From NCBI RefSeq assembly GCF_006385685.1, contig NZ_VFRP01000002.1, forward strand, positions 124,001-188,000: DNA of 64,000 nt, read 5' to 3'. This document shows, piece after piece, positions 2,513 to 16,362 of the stretch (the stretch's first letter is position 1; every line of letters begins with the position of its first letter). Both the position numbers and the translations under genes were made by a program. A model generated the notes under the pieces. It was given only the letters and a program-made list of their open reading frames with translations. It did no database searches and had not been told where the DNA came from. This DNA is from Amaricoccus solimangrovi (GTDB lineage Bacteria > Pseudomonadota > Alphaproteobacteria > Rhodobacterales > Rhodobacteraceae).

Positions 2513-4056
2513 CACGCCGCCTCCCCGATGCCGGCCGCGGCGCGCACGAGCGTCTCGGGCGTCAGCCCCGCGCGCTCGTATTCCCCGGCGATCCGGCCCT
2601 CGCGCATCACGATCACGCGGTCGGACATGCCGAGGATCTCCGGGATCTCCGAGGAGACCATGATGACGGCGAGTCCCTCGGCGGCGAGTTCCGCCATGAA
2701 TTCGTGCACCGCCGCCTTGGAGCCGATGTCGATGCCCTTGGTCGGCTCGTCGAGGATGATGACGCGGGGCCGCGTCGCGAGCCATTTCGCGATCACCACC
2801 TTCTGCTGGTTGCCGCCCGAAAGCTGCCCGAGTTCCTGGTCGAGCGCCGCGGCGCGCAGGTCGAGCCTCGTCGCGTATCTGCGCGCCAGCGCGAATTCCT
2901 CCGCGAGACGGAGGAACCCGTCCTTCGATGTCCGGGCGAGCGAGGGCAGGGTAATGTTCTGGAAGATCGGCATCGCCCGGATCGCCCCCTGCGCCCCCCG
3001 GTCCTCGGGGACATAGACGATGCCCTTCGCGATCGCCTGCGCCGGGTCGCGGATCACCGCCACCTTCCCGTCGATCCGGACCGCGCCCTTCGCGGGCTCC
3101 GTCACGCCGAAGAGCGCCTGCATGAACTCGCTCCGCCCCGCGCCGACGAGGCCGTAGAAGCCGAGGATCTCGCCCTTGCGCAGCGTGAAGTTGATGTCGG
3201 CGAATTCGGTCGGGTGGGAGTAACCGACGACCCTCAGCACCTCGTCCCCGACGTTGTGCGCGCGAACCGGGAAGATCGCCTCGATCGAGCGGCCGACCAT
3301 CATCCGCACCAGATCGTCCTCGGTCACGTCGGCCATGTGGCCCGCGCCGACGAGCGCGCCGTCGCGGAAGACGGTGTAGCGGTCGGCGATCCGGAAGATC
3401 TCGTCGAACTTGTGGCTGATGAAGAGGATCGCCTTGCCCTCGGCCCTCAGCCGCTCGACGAGTTCGTAGAGCTCCTCGATCTCCTTGTGCGAGAGCGCCG
3501 CCGTCGGCTCGTCCATGATGACGACGCGCGCCTCGATCGAGAGCGCGCGGGCGACGGCGACGAGATGCTTGCTCGCGATGCCGAGGTCGCGCAGCCGCGT
3601 CTCGGGCGCGATGGTGGCCCCGACGCGGGCGAGCATCTCGCGCGCCTCCGCGTTCATCCGCCGCCAGTCGATCAGGCCCCAGCGGGTGCGCGGGGCATGG
3701 CCGAGAAAGATGTTCTCCGCGACGGAGAGATCATCGAAGAGCACCGTCTCCTGATGGATCGCGGTGACGCCGGCGGCGGCCGCGGCCTCGGCGGTCGGGA
3801 AGGCGGTTTCCGCGCCCTCGAGCAGGATCCGGCCGGCGTCGGGCTGGTGGATGCCGGTCAGGATCTTCACGATCGTCGACTTGCCGGCGCCGTTCTCGCC
3901 CACGAGCGCGGTGACCTCGCCCGGGTAGAGCGCGAGCGCCACGCCGTCGAGGGCCTTCACGCCGGGAAAGCTCTTGGCGATGCCTTCGAGGGCCAGCACC
4001 GGCGGCGCATCGACGAGCGCGGTCGGGCCGTCGCGCTCGGGACGACTGGACAACAT
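2512..4056 (-). CDS. rhaT: Rhamnose ABC transporter ATP-binding protein (two ABC domains)
   Basis: A 514-residue double ATPase of the sugar-importer type (RbsA/MglA family). The first domain has Walker A GENGAGKST at residues 53-61 and Walker B VVIMDEPTAAL, but a decayed signature motif. The second has a weak P-loop (GLVGAGRSEF), an intact signature LSGGNQQKVV and Walker B VIILDEPTKGID. This asymmetry is usual for the family, so it is not a sign of damage. It energises uptake through RhaP/RhaQ. The rhaT name follows Rhizobium; it is unrelated to the E. coli RhaT proton symporter. A 56-base gap with a strong hairpin separates it from rhaS. Confidence 0.93.
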   Translation of the reverse strand: MLSSRPERDGPTALVDAPPVLALEGIAKSFPGVKALDGVALALYPGEVTALVGENGAGKSTIVKILTGIHQPDAGRILLEGAETAFPTAEAAAAAGVTAIHQETVLFDDLSVAENIFLGHAPRTRWGLIDWRRMNAEAREMLARVGATIAPETRLRDLGIASKHLVAVARALSIEARVVIMDEPTAALSHKEIEELYELVERLRAEGKAILFISHKFDEIFRIADRYTVFRDGALVGAGHMADVTEDDLVRMMVGRSIEAIFPVRAHNVGDEVLRVVGYSHPTEFADINFTLRKGEILGFYGLVGAGRSEFMQALFGVTEPAKGAVRIDGKVAVIRDPAQAIAKGIVYVPEDRGAQGAIRAMPIFQNITLPSLARTSKDGFLRLAEEFALARRYATRLDLRAAALDQELGQLSGGNQQKVVIAKWLATRPRVIILDEPTKGIDIGSKAAVHEFMAELAAEGLAVIMVSSEIPEILGMSDRVIVMREGRIAGEYERAGLTPETLVRAAAGIGEAA

Positions 4057-9687: not shown

Positions 9688-9762
9688 TGGAGCGGGCGAA
9701 GGGATTCGAACCCTCGACCCCAACCTTGGCAAGGTTGTGCTCTACCCCTGAGCTACACCCGC
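9688..9762 (-). tRNA. tRNA-Gly (anticodon GCC), copy 1
   Basis: Read on the minus strand, the 75-base gene folds into a normal cloverleaf: acceptor GCGGGTG paired with CGCCCGC, D-stem GCTC/GAGC, anticodon arm CAACC-TTGCCAA-GGTTG with anticodon GCC, and T-arm GAGGG-TTCGAAT-CCCTT. It ends in an encoded CCA. It is identical to the second copy at 9971-10045. Confidence 0.97.
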
Positions 9763-9970: not shown

Positions 9971-10045
9971 TGGAGCGGGCGAAGGGATTCGAACCCTCGA
10001 CCCCAACCTTGGCAAGGTTGTGCTCTACCCCTGAGCTACACCCGC
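9971..10045 (-). tRNA. tRNA-Gly (anticodon GCC), copy 2
   Basis: A 75-base tRNA identical to copy 1, with encoded CCA, complete stems and anticodon GCC. It is transcribed first if both genes share a leftward transcript. The 145 bases between it and the FAH-family gene contain no gene I can recognise. Confidence 0.97.
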
Positions 10046-10191: not shown

Positions 10192-10881
10192 TTATCGCAC
10201 CTCCACCTCCAGCGGCGGCAGCGAGGCGATCCGGCCGCTCAGCCGGTCGCCGCGGTGGATCGCGGAGACACCGGCCGGCGTGCCGGTGAGCAGCAGGTCG
10301 CCCGGCGCGAGTTCGAAGAGCTCGGACAGTTTCGAGATCGTCTCCGGGATCGACCAGACCATGTCGGCGAGATCGCCTCTCTGCCGCGTCTCGCCATTGA
10401 CGGCGAGCGTCACCGGCCCGGTCGAGAGCGGCGCGCCGAGCGCGCCGCGGGGCACGATCGGGCCGCAGGGGGCGGAGGCCTCGAAGGCCTTCGCGACCTC
10501 CCAGGGGCGGCCGGCCTTCTTGGCGAGCGACTGCAGGTCGCGCCGCGTCATGTCGAGCCCGACCGCGTAGCCGAAGATCTTCTCCTCGGCCTCCTCCGCG
10601 GGAATGTCGCGGCCGCCCGCGCCGAGCGCCACGACGAGTTCGATCTCGTGGTGCACGTCCGCGCTCAGGGGCGGATAGGGAAAGATCCCCCCGGTCACCA
10701 GATTGTCGGGATTCTTCTGGAAGAAGAATGGCGGCTCCCGGTCCGGATCATGGCCCATCTCCCGCGCATGCTCGGCATAGTTCCGGCCGACGCAATAGAC
10801 CCGGCGGACCGGGAACATGAGATCGGACCCCATGATCGGCAGGGCGGGACGGGGCGCGGGGGGAAAGGCGTATTCGGTCAT
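10192..10881 (-). CDS. Fumarylacetoacetate hydrolase family protein (fumarylpyruvate hydrolase-like)
   Basis: A 229-residue single-domain FAH-family enzyme. It has the signature VGRNYAEHAREMG, PFFFQKNPDNLV, the metal-binding HHEIELVVALG (Glu-x-Glu), GLDMTRRDLQ and a C-terminal LLTGTPAGV. Members cleave C-C bonds in fumarylpyruvate or acylpyruvates, or decarboxylate oxaloacetate. The length and the KNPDNLV element favour the fumarylpyruvate/acylpyruvase group over the longer true fumarylacetoacetases. It stands alone with no pathway neighbours, so the substrate is unknown. Confidence 0.85.
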   Translation of the reverse strand: MTEYAFPPAPRPALPIMGSDLMFPVRRVYCVGRNYAEHAREMGHDPDREPPFFFQKNPDNLVTGGIFPYPPLSADVHHEIELVVALGAGGRDIPAEEAEEKIFGYAVGLDMTRRDLQSLAKKAGRPWEVAKAFEASAPCGPIVPRGALGAPLSTGPVTLAVNGETRQRGDLADMVWSIPETISKLSELFELAPGDLLLTGTPAGVSAIHRGDRLSGRIASLPPLEVEVR

Positions 10882-11743: not shown

Positions 11744-12586
11744 TCAGAGGCCCCGCGCCTTCGCCTCGCTCCAGAGCGCGTCCATCTCCGCGAGGTCGCT
11801 TTCGGCCGTCGAGCGCCCCTTCGCGGCCAATGCGGCCTCGATCGCATGGAAACGGCGGGTGAATTTGGCATTCGCGGCGCGCAGCGCGGCTTCGGGATCG
11901 ACCCCGAGATGGCGCCCGAGATTGGCCATCACAAAGAGGAGATCGCCGTATTCCTCGGCCAGCCGCGCGGCTTCCTCGCCCGCGTCGCGCGCCTCGCGCA
12001 GCTCCCCCGCCTCCTCGACGATCTTGTCGATCACCCCGCCGGTATCGGGCCAGTCGAAGCCGACCCGCGCGGCGCGGTTCTGCAGCTTCACCGCCCGGGT
12101 GAGCGCGGGCAGCCCGGCGGCCACCCCGTCGAGCGCGCTCCGCGTCTCCGGCCTGTCCGCGCGCTCGGCGGCCTTGATCTTCTCCCAGTCCCGCGTCTGC
12201 TGCTCGGTCGATTTCTCCCGGCTCTCCGCGCCGAAGACATGCGGGTGCCGGCGGATCATCTTGTCGGAGATCGCGCGCACCACATCGGCGAAATCGAAGG
12301 CGCCGCGCTCCTCGGCCAGGCGCGCGTGATAGACCGACTGGAACAGCAGATCGCCGAGCTCGTCGCGCAGCGCCGGCATGTCGTCCTCGGCGATCGCCTC
12401 CGCGACCTCGTAGGCCTCCTCGATCGTATAGGGGGCGATGGTCGCGAAATCCTGCTCGAGATCCCAGGGACAGCCGAGCTCGGCATGGCGGAGCCGCGCC
12501 ATGATCGCGACGAGCCGGGGCACGCCGCCCTCCGGATCGTGGAAGAGCGCGTCGTCGGCGGGCGGGGTGCGGATATCCTCGGGCAT
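11744..12586 (-). CDS. mazG: Nucleoside triphosphate pyrophosphohydrolase MazG
   Basis: A 280-residue protein with two MazG repeats. The first contains CPWDLEQDFATIAPYTIEEA and DELGDLLFQSVYHARLAEE with the EExxE/ExxD metal ligands. The second contains FDWPDTGGVIDKIVEEAGEL and EEYGDLLFVMANLGRH. It hydrolyses non-canonical or regulatory NTPs to NMP and pyrophosphate. The ATG at 12584-12586 (MPEDIRTPP) was chosen because the residues further upstream are low-complexity and unlike the family. Confidence 0.92.
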   Translation of the reverse strand: MPEDIRTPPADDALFHDPEGGVPRLVAIMARLRHAELGCPWDLEQDFATIAPYTIEEAYEVAEAIAEDDMPALRDELGDLLFQSVYHARLAEERGAFDFADVVRAISDKMIRRHPHVFGAESREKSTEQQTRDWEKIKAAERADRPETRSALDGVAAGLPALTRAVKLQNRAARVGFDWPDTGGVIDKIVEEAGELREARDAGEEAARLAEEYGDLLFVMANLGRHLGVDPEAALRAANAKFTRRFHAIEAALAAKGRSTAESDLAEMDALWSEAKARGL

Positions 12587-12673
12587 GGCGCGGAAGCTAG
12601 CGGAGCGGGGCGCCGGGGGGAAGGGGGCGGGACGCCGTGGCGCGCGGGACACGGCCGCGGCGCGAGTGGGCGG

Positions 12674-12702
12674 TTGTTCCGTCGCGATCCGCGTGATATT
12701 CT
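12674..12702 (+). promoter_or_regulatory. Sigma-70-type promoter for the secreted-peptide locus
   Basis: TTGTTC (12674-12679) and TATTCT (12697-12702) are separated by exactly 17 bases. This is a good vegetative promoter in an otherwise very GC-rich stretch. A GGAGG ribosome site and the ATG of a small secreted peptide follow 15 and 28 bases later. Confidence 0.65.
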
Positions 12703-12729
12703 TACAACATTATACCGGAGGTCACTGCC

Positions 12730-12843
12730 ATGCGCCTCGCCGTATTGATACTGCTAGCTTCCGCCTTTTCGCTCGTCACGCTGCCTGGGGGATCCCAGGT
12801 CCGGGCCGGCAGCGCCTGCAACCCGAACATCCAGAGCTGCTGA
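12730..12843 (+). CDS. Small secreted peptide with two cysteines (37 aa), unknown
   Basis: An unrecognised 37-residue ORF with strong start signals: GGAGG at 12717-12721, eight bases before the ATG, downstream of a clear promoter. Residues 1-26 form a signal peptide (MRLAVLILLASAFSLVTLP, likely cleavage near QVRAG). The remainder is a tiny mature peptide ending in ACNPNIQSC, with two cysteines that could form a disulfide. It precedes, by 84 bases and on the same strand, a large membrane protein with a cysteine-rich periplasmic domain. A partner or ligand role is only a hypothesis. It is too short to place in a family. Confidence 0.6.
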   Translation: MRLAVLILLASAFSLVTLPGGSQVRAGSACNPNIQSC

Positions 12844-12927
12844 CCATCCGAGCCTGACCGCGATCCGAACCGGAGCGGCGCGCCGCGCCGGGCACGATAT
12901 CGCATGTCTTTTCATGAGGATGTTGTG

Positions 12928-15900
12928 ATGGCGGATGTCTGGCCGGACAACGTGCCCACCTCTCTCTGGACCTACCAGACGCTCGAGCTCAAGACCGTGC
13001 CGGAAGTTCCGATGATGGGGCTCGTGTTCGCGAACGGCTTCCTTCTCGCCGCGGGCCTCGGAGCCGTGTTCCTTCTGATCTTCGCGCGCCAGAGGTTCAT
13101 GGAGCAGCAGCGCAACGGCGGACCCGACGAGAATTTCCTCGTCCTGACCGAGATCGAGGCGCAGGACCTCGGCGGTTCCAGCGCGCTGCGCAAGGCCTAC
13201 ATGATCTACGCCTCGGTGATCCTCATCATCTATCTCGGCCTGACCTTTTTCGGAAAGCTGATCTTCAGCCTGACAAAACAGCTGCCCGTCGCGGGGATCG
13301 ACGTCGATCTCAACCAGATCCGCTTCGACCAGCCCGCCTGGCCGCTCACCGTGGCCTTCGGTCTCGCGGGAATGGGGCCGCTGCTCCCGCCCGTCCGGAT
13401 CGCGGAGGACTGGCTGAGGGAGCGCGCCTATCGCGCGGTCGGCATCCCGACGCGGATCCAGAAGACCGCGCGCAAGATCGTCGCGGCCCTCGATCACGCG
13501 TCGAGCGAGGAGCCGGCGGAGAGGACCGGGCGGAAGAGGAAGATCGACCGGGACGCCTGGAAGAAGAACCGGGCGCTGCGAAAGCTGCTGGCGGACAAGC
13601 GCGAGCTTCTGCGGACGCGGCTGTCCGGCACCTGGATGGACGCCGCGCTCGGCCGGGCGGATCGGCGCGACGAGTTCATCGCCCTGCACACGCAGCTCGA
13701 ATCGCTCGTCTTCTGGGCGCGGGGCGCGCGCGGCGCCTGGCCGGGGATCGAGGTGTCGGAGGCCGTGCGCTCGCTCGAGAACCGCGTGCTGGAGGAGACC
13801 GAGGTCTTTCTCAACGAGTTCGAGCGGAATCTCCGCGAAGCGCGGAGCGGAGGATCCCCGCCCGTGATCCCCGCCTTCAGCCCGAAGCTGAAGCAGATGC
13901 GAAGGCTTCGCGGCGAACTGGCGGCCATCCTCGCCGTCTTCGTCGAACGCGATCCGATCCAGATCGAGAAGGACGGCGCGGTCGCCACCGAACGCGGCGC
14001 GTCCGAAATCAGGGACGCGGCGCTCGACGGCCTGCTCCTGGCCTCCGAACCGAGCCCCGTCACCGCGGGACCGGAACTGGCGCTGGGGCTGGCGATCCTC
14101 TGCCTCTTTCCGGTCTACGCCGTCTTCGTGTGGCGGGGATGGCATCCCGCCTTCGCTCCGGCCTCCTCGATCGACGCGCCGGTCACCATACTGACGTCGG
14201 CGGCCCTGGAGACGCTGCGGCTCACGCTCATCCTCTGGCTTCCGATCATGGCGGCCTTCTCGGTGCGCCAGTACCTGATCGACGAGGACCGGTGGATCTA
14301 CGACCTCGGGCGCGGCTACGATTCGACGCAGGTGCTGCGCGAGCAGACGGCGGCGATCATGGTGGGCCTCGTCGCCGCCTTCATCGGGCTGCTCGCGCTC
14401 GCGCCCTTGTGGGCCTTCCTGCAATCCATCAACGAGGCGCGGTTCCGGGATCTGCTGCTGAAAGGCACCGTGCCCTTCCTGCTGTTCTATCCGAGCATGC
14501 TCATCATTTCCGCGCCCGCCGTCTGGAGCGCGCTGGCCGGCGCCGACGCCCGGGCGCGACGGCGATGGAAGCGCGGCATGTTCCTCGGCCTTGTCGGCGC
14601 GGGCTTCGTCTTCGCCGCCCAGTATCTTCAGCTTGGCCTCTGGTACGGCTTCCAGGCCTGCGCCGCGAAGGGCTGGTTCCTGTTCGACTTCTGGCAGCAG
14701 GAAGGCTGCTTCGCAAACTATGGCGGCCTCGATTTCGTCGTCTATCCTCTGCTGACGTTCCTGACGACGGTCTTCCTCGGCAATCCGGAGCGGAGGACGC
14801 GGCGTCAGCTGCGAAGGACCGCGCAGGCCTCGCTCCGGCCCGCCTCCGCCGCCACGACGGCGCTCCTGCTGGTCCTGGCCCCGCTCGCCTTCTCGGCCAT
14901 GCCGGCGCTCTCCCAGACCACCGGAACGCCGGCGGTGTCACCCGCGCCGGGCCGCGAGCCTCCGAAGGAGCCGATGCGCGTCACGCTCGGTTTCAGGACG
15001 GACGCGGAGCCCTTCTCCTTCAAGAGTGACAACAACAAGGACGACAGCGACGGATTCCGCTATTCCGGCTTCGTGGCCGACCTGTGTCACCGGATCTTCT
15101 CGGGACCCGGCTTCATCGTCACCGAGACCGCGGTCACGGCCGAGGATCGCTTCGAAAGGCTTCGGAAGCACGAGAACGACCCGGACAAGATCGACGTGCT
15201 CTGCGATCCCGTCACGATGCGTTACTCGGATCCGGAACGGGTGGGTCTCTACTCGCCGATCGTCTTCGCCTCCGGCGTCTCTTACCTGCGCGTCCTCCAG
15301 CGGGCCGCCGGCGCACGCGTGCAGATCGCCTATGTCGAGGGCTCGACCTCGGACAAGGTGGCCCGGCGCGCCTGCGACGTGGATCTGTTCGCGATCGTTC
15401 CGCCGAAGAAGCGCGACACCCTGCCGATCATCTGCGCGACAAGCTGGTCGATCGCCCGCTACGTCTACGCGCGCGGAAACGCGGGGGGAGACGACGATCT
15501 CGATGCGCTCGCCAGCGGCCTCGCCCTGGCCGCCGATCTGCAACTGAGATGGGCGAAGACGCAACTCGGCGCCACCGACGCCGCGTCGGCGTGTCCGGGC
15601 GACGGGTCGAGCCAATGCGTGGAGATCCTGAGGAAGCTCGCGGACAACTTCGAGGCGGATCCGGGCGGGCGGGACGATACGCTGAGGACGCGGTCGAGCG
15701 CGCTGCGCGTGGATCTTGAGGCGGCGGTCGGCAAGCGTCGGTCGGACGAGCTCTTCGACCTCTGGAAAGGCGTTCATGTCTGGCAGAGCATACGAGACGA
15801 GCTCACCTCCGGGGATCGATGCGTCTCCGATGCCTGTTTCGAGCAGTTGAGGAGCGAATTCCTCTCGCTGGGCTACGATCCGGACTGCGGTGTCGTCGAC

Positions 15901-16362
15901 AACTACGGCGCGACGAGATTTGAACGGATATATTACCGATTCTGTCCACTGAGAAGCCACAACGATGCCATCTCGTGGCTGTGTTCTCCCCGTTTCAACG
16001 CGGATACGAACCTTGTCTACATGGGGGACCGGGACATCATCGTGGGCAAGCTCCGATCCTGGAACATTCTCAACGGCGACTGCCCGGTCGAGAACACCGA
16101 CGGAGCCGATATCCTGACCTACGAACCCTACGCGCTGCTCTTCAGGAAGGATCCCGAACTCGCGGATGTCATCCAGCGCGGGGTCTACGATTTCTTCTCC
16201 CGACGGACCGACGCGCAGGCGTCCTTCGCGACCTATTTTCCGGGCAAGACCATGTCGACGGTACTGGCCTATCTCTTCCTGCTGAACGCGGTCGAGCAGG
16301 AGGAGACGACGACGAGCCGTTCGGTTCCCATACCGGAGGCCAGGCCGGGCCCGGCCGACTGA
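12928..16362 (+). CDS. Polytopic membrane protein fused to a periplasmic solute-binding-like domain (1144 aa)
   Basis: I do not recognise this architecture. Residues 1 to about 170 hold three hydrophobic segments; about 170-380 is a charged, helical soluble region; about 385-660 holds six to seven more hydrophobic segments, the last (ATTALLLVLAPLAFSAMPA) resembling a signal peptide with a cleavage-like site. From about 683 a domain resembles family 3 extracellular solute-binding proteins: MRVTLGFRTDAEPFSF, then GFVADLCHRIF and DVLCDPVTMRYSDPERVGLY. The C-terminal 460 residues contain 12 cysteines, suiting an oxidising periplasm. The ATG at 12928 is preferred over 12904 because GAGGAT lies six bases upstream. 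It is probably cotranscribed with the small secreted peptide. It could be a sensor or an unusual transporter; no ATPase or kinase domain is present. Confidence 0.75.
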   Translation: MADVWPDNVPTSLWTYQTLELKTVPEVPMMGLVFANGFLLAAGLGAVFLLIFARQRFMEQQRNGGPDENFLVLTEIEAQDLGGSSALRKAYMIYASVILIIYLGLTFFGKLIFSLTKQLPVAGIDVDLNQIRFDQPAWPLTVAFGLAGMGPLLPPVRIAEDWLRERAYRAVGIPTRIQKTARKIVAALDHASSEEPAERTGRKRKIDRDAWKKNRALRKLLADKRELLRTRLSGTWMDAALGRADRRDEFIALHTQLESLVFWARGARGAWPGIEVSEAVRSLENRVLEETEVFLNEFERNLREARSGGSPPVIPAFSPKLKQMRRLRGELAAILAVFVERDPIQIEKDGAVATERGASEIRDAALDGLLLASEPSPVTAGPELALGLAILCLFPVYAVFVWRGWHPAFAPASSIDAPVTILTSAALETLRLTLILWLPIMAAFSVRQYLIDEDRWIYDLGRGYDSTQVLREQTAAIMVGLVAAFIGLLALAPLWAFLQSINEARFRDLLLKGTVPFLLFYPSMLIISAPAVWSALAGADARARRRWKRGMFLGLVGAGFVFAAQYLQLGLWYGFQACAAKGWFLFDFWQQEGCFANYGGLDFVVYPLLTFLTTVFLGNPERRTRRQLRRTAQASLRPASAATTALLLVLAPLAFSAMPALSQTTGTPAVSPAPGREPPKEPMRVTLGFRTDAEPFSFKSDNNKDDSDGFRYSGFVADLCHRIFSGPGFIVTETAVTAEDRFERLRKHENDPDKIDVLCDPVTMRYSDPERVGLYSPIVFASGVSYLRVLQRAAGARVQIAYVEGSTSDKVARRACDVDLFAIVPPKKRDTLPIICATSWSIARYVYARGNAGGDDDLDALASGLALAADLQLRWAKTQLGATDAASACPGDGSSQCVEILRKLADNFEADPGGRDDTLRTRSSALRVDLEAAVGKRRSDELFDLWKGVHVWQSIRDELTSGDRCVSDACFEQLRSEFLSLGYDPDCGVVDNYGATRFERIYYRFCPLRSHNDAISWLCSPRFNADTNLVYMGDRDIIVGKLRSWNILNGDCPVENTDGADILTYEPYALLFRKDPELADVIQRGVYDFFSRRTDAQASFATYFPGKTMSTVLAYLFLLNAVEQEETTTSRSVPIPEARPGPAD

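Follow-up and report, generated by a model that had tools for sequence, protein, structure and literature searches.

A conserved gene for a short cysteine-pair peptide next to the gene of an undescribed polytopic membrane protein in Amaricoccus solimangrovi and its relatives

In a 64,000-nucleotide stretch of the Amaricoccus solimangrovi genome (contig NZ_VFRP01000002.1, positions 124,001 to 188,000; the whole stretch is called the window here and supplies the coordinates), a plus-strand gene pair encodes a 37-residue peptide of secreted type and a protein of 1144 residues that joins a polytopic membrane domain to a periplasmic solute-binding protein (SBP) domain. The genome comprises 4.86 Mb in 135 contigs, and the partner of the peptide is single-copy in it. 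A MazG gene upstream and a MIP/aquaporin-type gene downstream, both on the minus strand, flank the pair, and no ABC ATPase, kinase or exporter adjoins it in the window, as a preliminary description made from the sequence had already noted for transporter ATPase, kinase and export genes. The locus consists of the following features, of which the longer coding one is given from its likely start.

12717-12721 (+): GGAGG, Shine-Dalgarno site 8 nt 5' of the ATG of the peptide gene, read from the sequence
12730-12843 (+): gene for the 37-aa peptide, made up of a Sec-type signal peptide and the ring peptide, with homologues at 52 of 53 inspected loci
12730-12807 (+): predicted signal peptide, residues 1-26, with putative cleavage after VRA at an [AV]xA site
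12808-12840 (+): predicted mature peptide GSACNPNIQSC; ring Cys30-Cys37 at 12817-12840, with a putative disulfide
12844-12927 (+): 84-base spacer from the peptide stop to the partner ATG, without a terminator-like site
12928-16362 (+): partner gene, 1144 aa; the open reading frame (ORF) opens at 12904, the start being chosen by N-terminal conservation
12928-14844 (+): membrane domain, residues 1-639, with three N-terminal spans, a helical bundle and further spans, from hydropathy and models
13450-13950 (+): predicted helical bundle, residues 175-341, from the model, presumably cytosolic
14845-14931 (+): last span, like the signal peptide of stand-alone SBPs
14974-16284 (+): SBP domain, residues 683-1119, carrying the motifs LCDPxT, GDR(D/E)I and YEPYA as well as conserved cysteines
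15403-15867 (+): helical insert of the SBP domain (residues 826-980), variable, and shortened or missing in many relatives

The GGAGG site and the peptide ending in ACNPNIQSC are thus where the preliminary description had seen them, and so is the large partner 84 bases after the peptide stop. Counted from 12904 the large ORF would have 1152 aa; ATG 12928 is its likely start, because the family N-terminus M..xWPxxxPxSLW and a TGAGGA before this ATG both support it. The good sigma-70 promoter that had also been claimed was not recovered, since a scan of 12550-13050 returned 0 promoter-like and 0 terminator-like sites. The GC content of the 39 bases before the peptide ATG is 46% versus 70% for the window, and this local drop, taken together with -10-like sequences seen by eye in relatives, points to a promoter. 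Purine-rich GGAG-like sites, also judged by eye, lie 5' of most relatives' peptide genes. Peptide and partner would share one transcript. A GC-rich palindromic stretch between both genes (12856-12893) has an 87% match in the same genome (G000:C125:67748-67786) and is perhaps a dispersed intergenic element.

Relatives were collected by profile searches of 394 genomes of the family (10 matching), 385 of the class (3 matching) and 398 of the phylum (6 matching), with the window genome included in each count, and of 11 genomes of the genus, 7 of which matched and three of these, besides that of the window, carried the membrane domain. Searches of plasmids with tblastn gave 27 and 13 records with overlaps, from which 16 places were read, and a second scan of genome contigs yielded 21 loci. 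A contig scan that used just the window protein (49 stretches) and a scan of viral contigs (66 pattern stretches) contained no relative. Plasmid records from Rhizobium, Ensifer and Paracoccus did carry relatives. We did not count as members the weak SBP-only loci L007-L013, the longer versions L021-L027 or the matches in G1118, G130 and G1123; L074, L076 and L081 come from the same organisms as L051, L040 and L018 and were also left out of the count, the peptide being present in all three. The partner ORF is split at L047 and L051 and broken at L098.

We found the peptide in 52 of 53 inspected family members, a count which is no survey of the peptide itself, as the loci had been located via the membrane partner or the SBP. 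It lies immediately 5' of the membrane gene at 51 loci (48 tabulated ones plus G1117, G1121 and G1124 of the window genus), and at the 48 tabulated loci the gap to the first in-frame start codon of the partner ranges from -26 to 122 nt with a median of 41; at L098 the peptide is present next to the broken partner frame. In the second contig scan it was found at 21 of 21 loci. The linkage persists even where the membrane domain shares as little as about 14-20% identity with that of the window, and each of the weak membrane-domain relatives G083, G004 and G128 has one upstream peptide gene. In G094, which holds the strong homologue of the large protein that was found first, two peptide genes with the ends CNPLIQKC and CNPEIQKC precede it. 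These tandem, differing ring-peptide genes before a single partner occupy 10294-10407 and 10554-10676 (-) of locus L020. In a Paroceanicella profunda plasmid record the peptide gene (L054, 3123-3287, +) has an annotation already, namely as hypothetical protein WP_170317846.1.

The predicted mature peptides follow the consensus GPC[ND]PN[VI]Q[RK]C, about 10 residues long with a Cys-x6-Cys spacing. The motif C[ND]P-x4-C occurs in 42 of 45 peptides, a P before the first Cys in 35 and a C-terminal Cys in 27 of them; between the cysteines a Q is conserved in 29 of 42, besides N/D-P, and both cysteines are kept in every peptide read. In 49 peptides we observed K/R within the first six residues (45 of 49), an [AV]xA site before the first Cys (42 of 49) and a predicted mature length that is most often 10; some have long Pro-rich linkers following the predicted cleavage site. 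Departures from the consensus are found in distant members with the altered rings CSGSQRC, CFNGRC and CFNGKC, in the L094/L097 clade with its distinct class GRCFNG[RK]CY, in the G1124 peptide with a 14-residue tail beyond the ring, and in the degenerate peptides GPCQVRQNCP and GPCATNARVC of L047 and L050, which fell outside our first regular expression. The pattern C[ND]P....C.?stop was met 42 times on site, 0 times off site and 0 times in reversed sequence (44 loci, 617,970 bp, both strands). Over 15 related, non-independent pairs the differences at first, second and third codon positions number 76/35/177, and nonsynonymous divergence is below synonymous divergence (dN < dS) in 14 of these 15 pairs. 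The preliminary description had named homologous loci without the small ORF, or an ORF without codon conservation, as what would speak against the pair, and neither is what these loci display. The motif conservation, the excess of third-position changes and the restriction of the pattern to the site rule out a chance ORF; the peptide ORF is a real gene under selection, and the peptide-partner system itself is very likely real. Two further candidates were rejected: a lipoprotein, as a lipobox precedes the first Cys in 0 of 49 peptides, and a second peptide in the window genome, where the DNA pattern occurs at two places, against one for a control, and the second of the two lies inside an ABC ATPase-like frame.

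For the partner, hydropathy gives 9 spans in the window protein and the AlphaFold model about ten long hydrophobic helices, in keeping with the roughly ten spans described before. The predicted local distance difference (pLDDT) and template modelling (pTM) scores are 72.8 and 0.53 for the whole protein and 79.7 and 0.75 for the membrane domain alone, and the models place three N-terminal spans first, then the helical bundle (175-341; helices 175-192, 208-213, 215-232, 244-267, 278-306 and 314-341), further spans and finally the periplasmic binding domain. Across 25 diverse membrane domains few residues are invariant, namely G53, Y102, Y110, E168 and P182 (numbered from 12904). Pfam and NCBIfam contain no family that covers the membrane domain; stray matches concerned two families, each in one of the 25 members, and one family in 1 of 22 whole proteins. 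Foldseek comparison of the membrane domain with PDB and BFVD returned no match at E<=0.001, and an hmmsearch of PDB sequences gave weak helical matches alone (best E 0.0086). None of the PADLOC defence models matches the window partner.

The cysteine-bearing periplasmic binding-like domain of the preliminary description proved to have the fold of class II binding proteins, as Foldseek matches it to 2ia4/2vha with E about 1e-6. To the Pfam family SBP_bac_3 (PF00497) the window domain is a sub-threshold match (E 0.08), and 10 of 12 SBP members reach E<=0.01; all of the 12 SBPs compared share four invariant cysteines. Of 53 stretches searched, with three duplicates and L096 among them, 47 contain an SBP, the L098 match being short and on the opposite strand. 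The SBP is fused to the membrane domain in the window and at most Rhizobium/Paracoccus-type loci and is a separate downstream gene elsewhere, these separate genes beginning with signal-peptide-like stretches. Since the last span of the long form resembles those signal peptides, the fused forms probably arose by joining of a membrane gene and an SBP gene. At six peptide-bearing loci (L017, L019, L059, L094, L097 and L112) the stretch read contains neither an SBP domain nor an SBP gene. The constant partner of the peptide is the membrane domain, and because the peptide stays where the SBP is unlinked it belongs with this domain first. The peptide-receptor pair suggested in the preliminary description is therefore borne out in so far as the peptide is conserved beside the membrane protein, but its periplasmic domain as the sensor or holder is not favoured by these six loci, which also weaken the candidate reading of the peptide as a ligand of the SBP alone. 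SBP-like matches lie elsewhere in the genomes G004, G083, G479 and G1105, with none in G923 and with the genomes of L059 and L112 outside this search, and they may leave room for an SBP acting in trans. Around three such distant places we found no membrane-domain match, and the two small ORFs there that passed a loose Cys regular expression do not look peptide-like by eye.

We compared the pair with known systems that it resembles in part. AgrD-AgrC and ComC-ComD are peptide pheromone-receptor pairs of Gram-positive bacteria, and Agr-type products are rings. As in those, a short ribosomal precursor is encoded beside a polytopic membrane protein; here, however, the precursor has a Sec signal peptide and a Cys-Cys ring, the hosts are Gram-negative, and in the window no processing or export protease, histidine kinase or response regulator adjoins. 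Nor does the partner contain a histidine kinase or response regulator domain; at L045 an annotated response regulator lies about 4.7 kb downstream. With SBP_bac_3 and the class II amino-acid binding proteins (PF00497; 2ia4, 2vha) the C-terminal domain shares its fold, but it has extra conserved cysteines, the LCDPxT and YEPYA motifs, and a fusion or linkage to a membrane protein without a match among permease families. An ABC importer would need more than this locus offers, as no permease family or ATPase is linked in the window. Ionotropic glutamate receptors likewise carry a class II binding domain on membrane helices, and AMPA receptor chains are among the Foldseek matches; in glutamate receptors the pore interrupts the binding domain. 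Here, in contrast, the membrane part precedes the SBP, the insert 826-980 is helical and non-hydrophobic, and no span follows the one before the SBP. Among the 50 of 74 Foldseek matches listed for the membrane domain alone there is no glutamate receptor, and the likeness would seem to lie in the binding domain. The closest comparison from the side of caspases is System 4 of Kaur et al. 2020 (PMC7159879), in which EACC1, a domain with a single transmembrane segment, is encoded 5' of a caspase gene. It is similarly membrane-associated, has caspase partners and an occasional periplasmic-binding domain, but the section of the paper on it describes neither a secreted peptide nor a polytopic receptor; set against the definition given there, the partner in our system is polytopic and no caspase adjoins it in the window.

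Neither the peptide family nor the membrane domain has a description in the libraries used: beyond the SBP fold no part matched Pfam or NCBIfam (the stray single-member matches aside), nor convincingly the PDB by sequence or fold. Literature searches, within what they covered, gave no description of such a pair of peptide and membrane protein. To our knowledge, little is known of ribosomal ring peptides paired with a membrane partner in Gram-negative bacteria. The pair may work like a peptide and its receptor and yet is a member of none of the known pairs tested, and functional data could make it a variant of peptide signalling. That dozens of bacteria carry the peptide together with the undescribed membrane protein points to a previously unknown peptide-and-partner system, and its function is directly testable, given the compact pair, the single-copy partner, the peptide without linked SBP at some loci and the relatives on plasmids.

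Clustering of neighbour ORFs at 45 loci revealed recurrent lytic-type enzymes at some of them. GDSL-lipase multidomain proteins were found at 8 loci, with Pfam domains of caspase (L055, L059, L060, L066, L075), Amidase_3 (L018, L078) and peptidase M15 (L018, L075, L078), and the GDSL-family neighbour at L053 is annotated as an amidase. Four of their frames (L060 2293-4203, L075 1-2867, L018 1426-4044 and L078 10326-12794) combine a GDSL lipase with caspase or Amidase_3, and peptidase M15 is present in three of the four; this is an unusual, demolition-type architecture with no obvious signal peptide. CHAT-type proteins occur at six Paracoccus loci, one species being represented twice (by Pfam for L071, by annotation for L048 and L051), and a papain-like family at 5 loci, with a Pfam match above cut-off at L042, below it at L061 and none at L075, and a C1 annotation at L045; further neighbours are trypsin-like proteins at 4 loci, a patatin, and peptidoglycan-binding proteins with CHAP or SLT. 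Twelve representative neighbour enzymes have no obvious signal peptide by eye, the starts of the trypsin and SLT frames being arbitrary. With PADLOC, three of seven neighbour proteins gave weak matches (caspase 4e-5, trypsin-like 2e-5, BovA 2e-6). By tblastn, a lytic-type gene (caspase, CHAT, papain-like, patatin, GDSL or peptidoglycan hydrolase) is present at 20 of 52 loci versus 0 of 14 background stretches (10 other loci and 4 window pieces), an enrichment that is partly circular, as the queries were drawn from the system loci. Caspase matches number 53 in 41 genomes of relatives, the window genome included, and at this low base rate a caspase within some 10 kb would rarely arise by chance. 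The lytic neighbours at part of the loci hint at controlled lysis. In the window genome two caspase-domain frames lie on other contigs (G000:C46:58934-59620, 952 aa, and G000:C77:5433-6068, 565 aa), and at L057, in Sinorhizobium meliloti RCAM1115, TIR-domain and Fic proteins are encoded upstream of the module (2542-3252 and 1098-2276).

Whether the exported ring peptide is a ligand of the membrane protein, either as a signal or as a gating subunit, we regard as an even call. The two or three parts would then form a module of the cell envelope. The first gene would give a Sec-exported precursor from which signal peptidase frees some 10 residues (GSACNPNIQSC in the window), and the two cysteines of this peptide could close an eight-residue ring in the periplasm via the Dsb system. 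The polytopic product of the second gene would carry the helical bundle on its cytosolic side and, in most members, the fused or adjacent SBP; the ring peptide might sit on or gate it at the periplasmic side, where there is an SBP domain, it could contribute a further input, either by binding a small ligand or by helping to present the peptide. The bundle would relay the state inward, the presumed direction of signalling. At loci with lytic neighbours the output would probably be the release or activation of proteases, lipases and peptidoglycan hydrolases. The complete scheme, namely an unrecognised Gram-negative form of peptide signalling in which a decapeptide, exported by Sec and closed to a disulfide ring, gates membrane receptors of a new class, with the periplasmic binding protein as second input and programmed or altruistic lysis through caspase, CHAT, lipase or peptidoglycan-hydrolase effectors at some loci, is a tentative one, possible rather than probable. 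If the lytic neighbours are indeed the output, the system would connect cell death of the caspase type in bacteria with a peptide signal.

Several observations weigh against the ligand reading and its lytic output. At 32 of 52 loci, including the window, no lytic neighbour was found, and the effector of L075, the single effector searched in whole genomes, has no relative in the window genome. Common genes recur near the module as well, namely ABC ATPase-like ones (9 proteins, 8 of 45 loci, kilobases from the module) and LysR-type ones (6 proteins, 6 of 45 loci), and recurrence alone therefore makes no partner. We found no kinase or other known output domain in the partner, so that transduction is a guess, and as no outer-membrane exporter adjoins the pair in the window a true cell-to-cell signal is uncertain. 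Peptide distance tracks membrane-partner distance (Mantel rho 0.414, 0 of 1000 permutations, 47 rows), which speaks for the ligand reading, but such a correlation between clades would also be expected from plain co-inheritance. Finally, L096 (G923, another class) has a distant membrane-domain relative without the peptide, a dinB-like frame ending about 80 bases before it. This relative from outside Alphaproteobacteria (L096, 5076-7206, +) has an extra C-terminal stretch, which by eye we take to resemble TerB.

The near-obligate linkage and the purifying selection would also suit a small constitutive subunit that serves the structure or assembly of the membrane protein, has a hydrophobic segment that is perhaps uncleaved and is no signal at all. 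CydX-like micro-subunits are a known model for such a part, the missing exporter would then be no difficulty, and diversification of an arms-race kind is not in evidence; the [AV]xA site that precedes the ring in 42 of 49 peptides and the long Pro-rich linkers of some fit cleavage and a free peptide instead, and we hold the subunit to be unlikely. Quite improbable is a peptide toxin or bacteriocin for which the membrane protein would serve as immunity protein or transporter. A small secreted cysteine peptide beside a membrane protein, the plasmid records and the lytic-enzyme neighbours at some loci agree with it, but purifying selection and a near-fixed motif across families do not, no exporter adjoins in the window, the SBP domain is left unexplained, and known immunity proteins are far smaller than the 1144-aa partner. 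Of similarly low probability is a periplasmic redox or disulfide sensor, in which Dsb sets the redox state of the ring and the cysteine-bearing SBP reads oxidation or cysteine status from it. The cysteines kept in all peptides and the four invariant ones in 12 of 12 SBPs are in its favour, as is a weak profile match to the solute-binding protein 1xt8 (E 0.0056), but the residues between the peptide cysteines are conserved too (N/D-P; Q in 29 of 42), and the peptide is kept where the SBP is unlinked. A translated leader peptide that controls the downstream gene and has a functionless product would fit the position just 5' and the short spacer but is rejected as highly improbable in view of the conserved signal-peptide features, cleavage context and ring and of the third-position substitution excess.

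Apart from the gene pair, the window contains two tRNA-Gly(GCC) genes at 9688-9762 and 9971-10045 (-), about 280 bases apart and with similar flanks, which appear as repeated sequence in the ORF translations.

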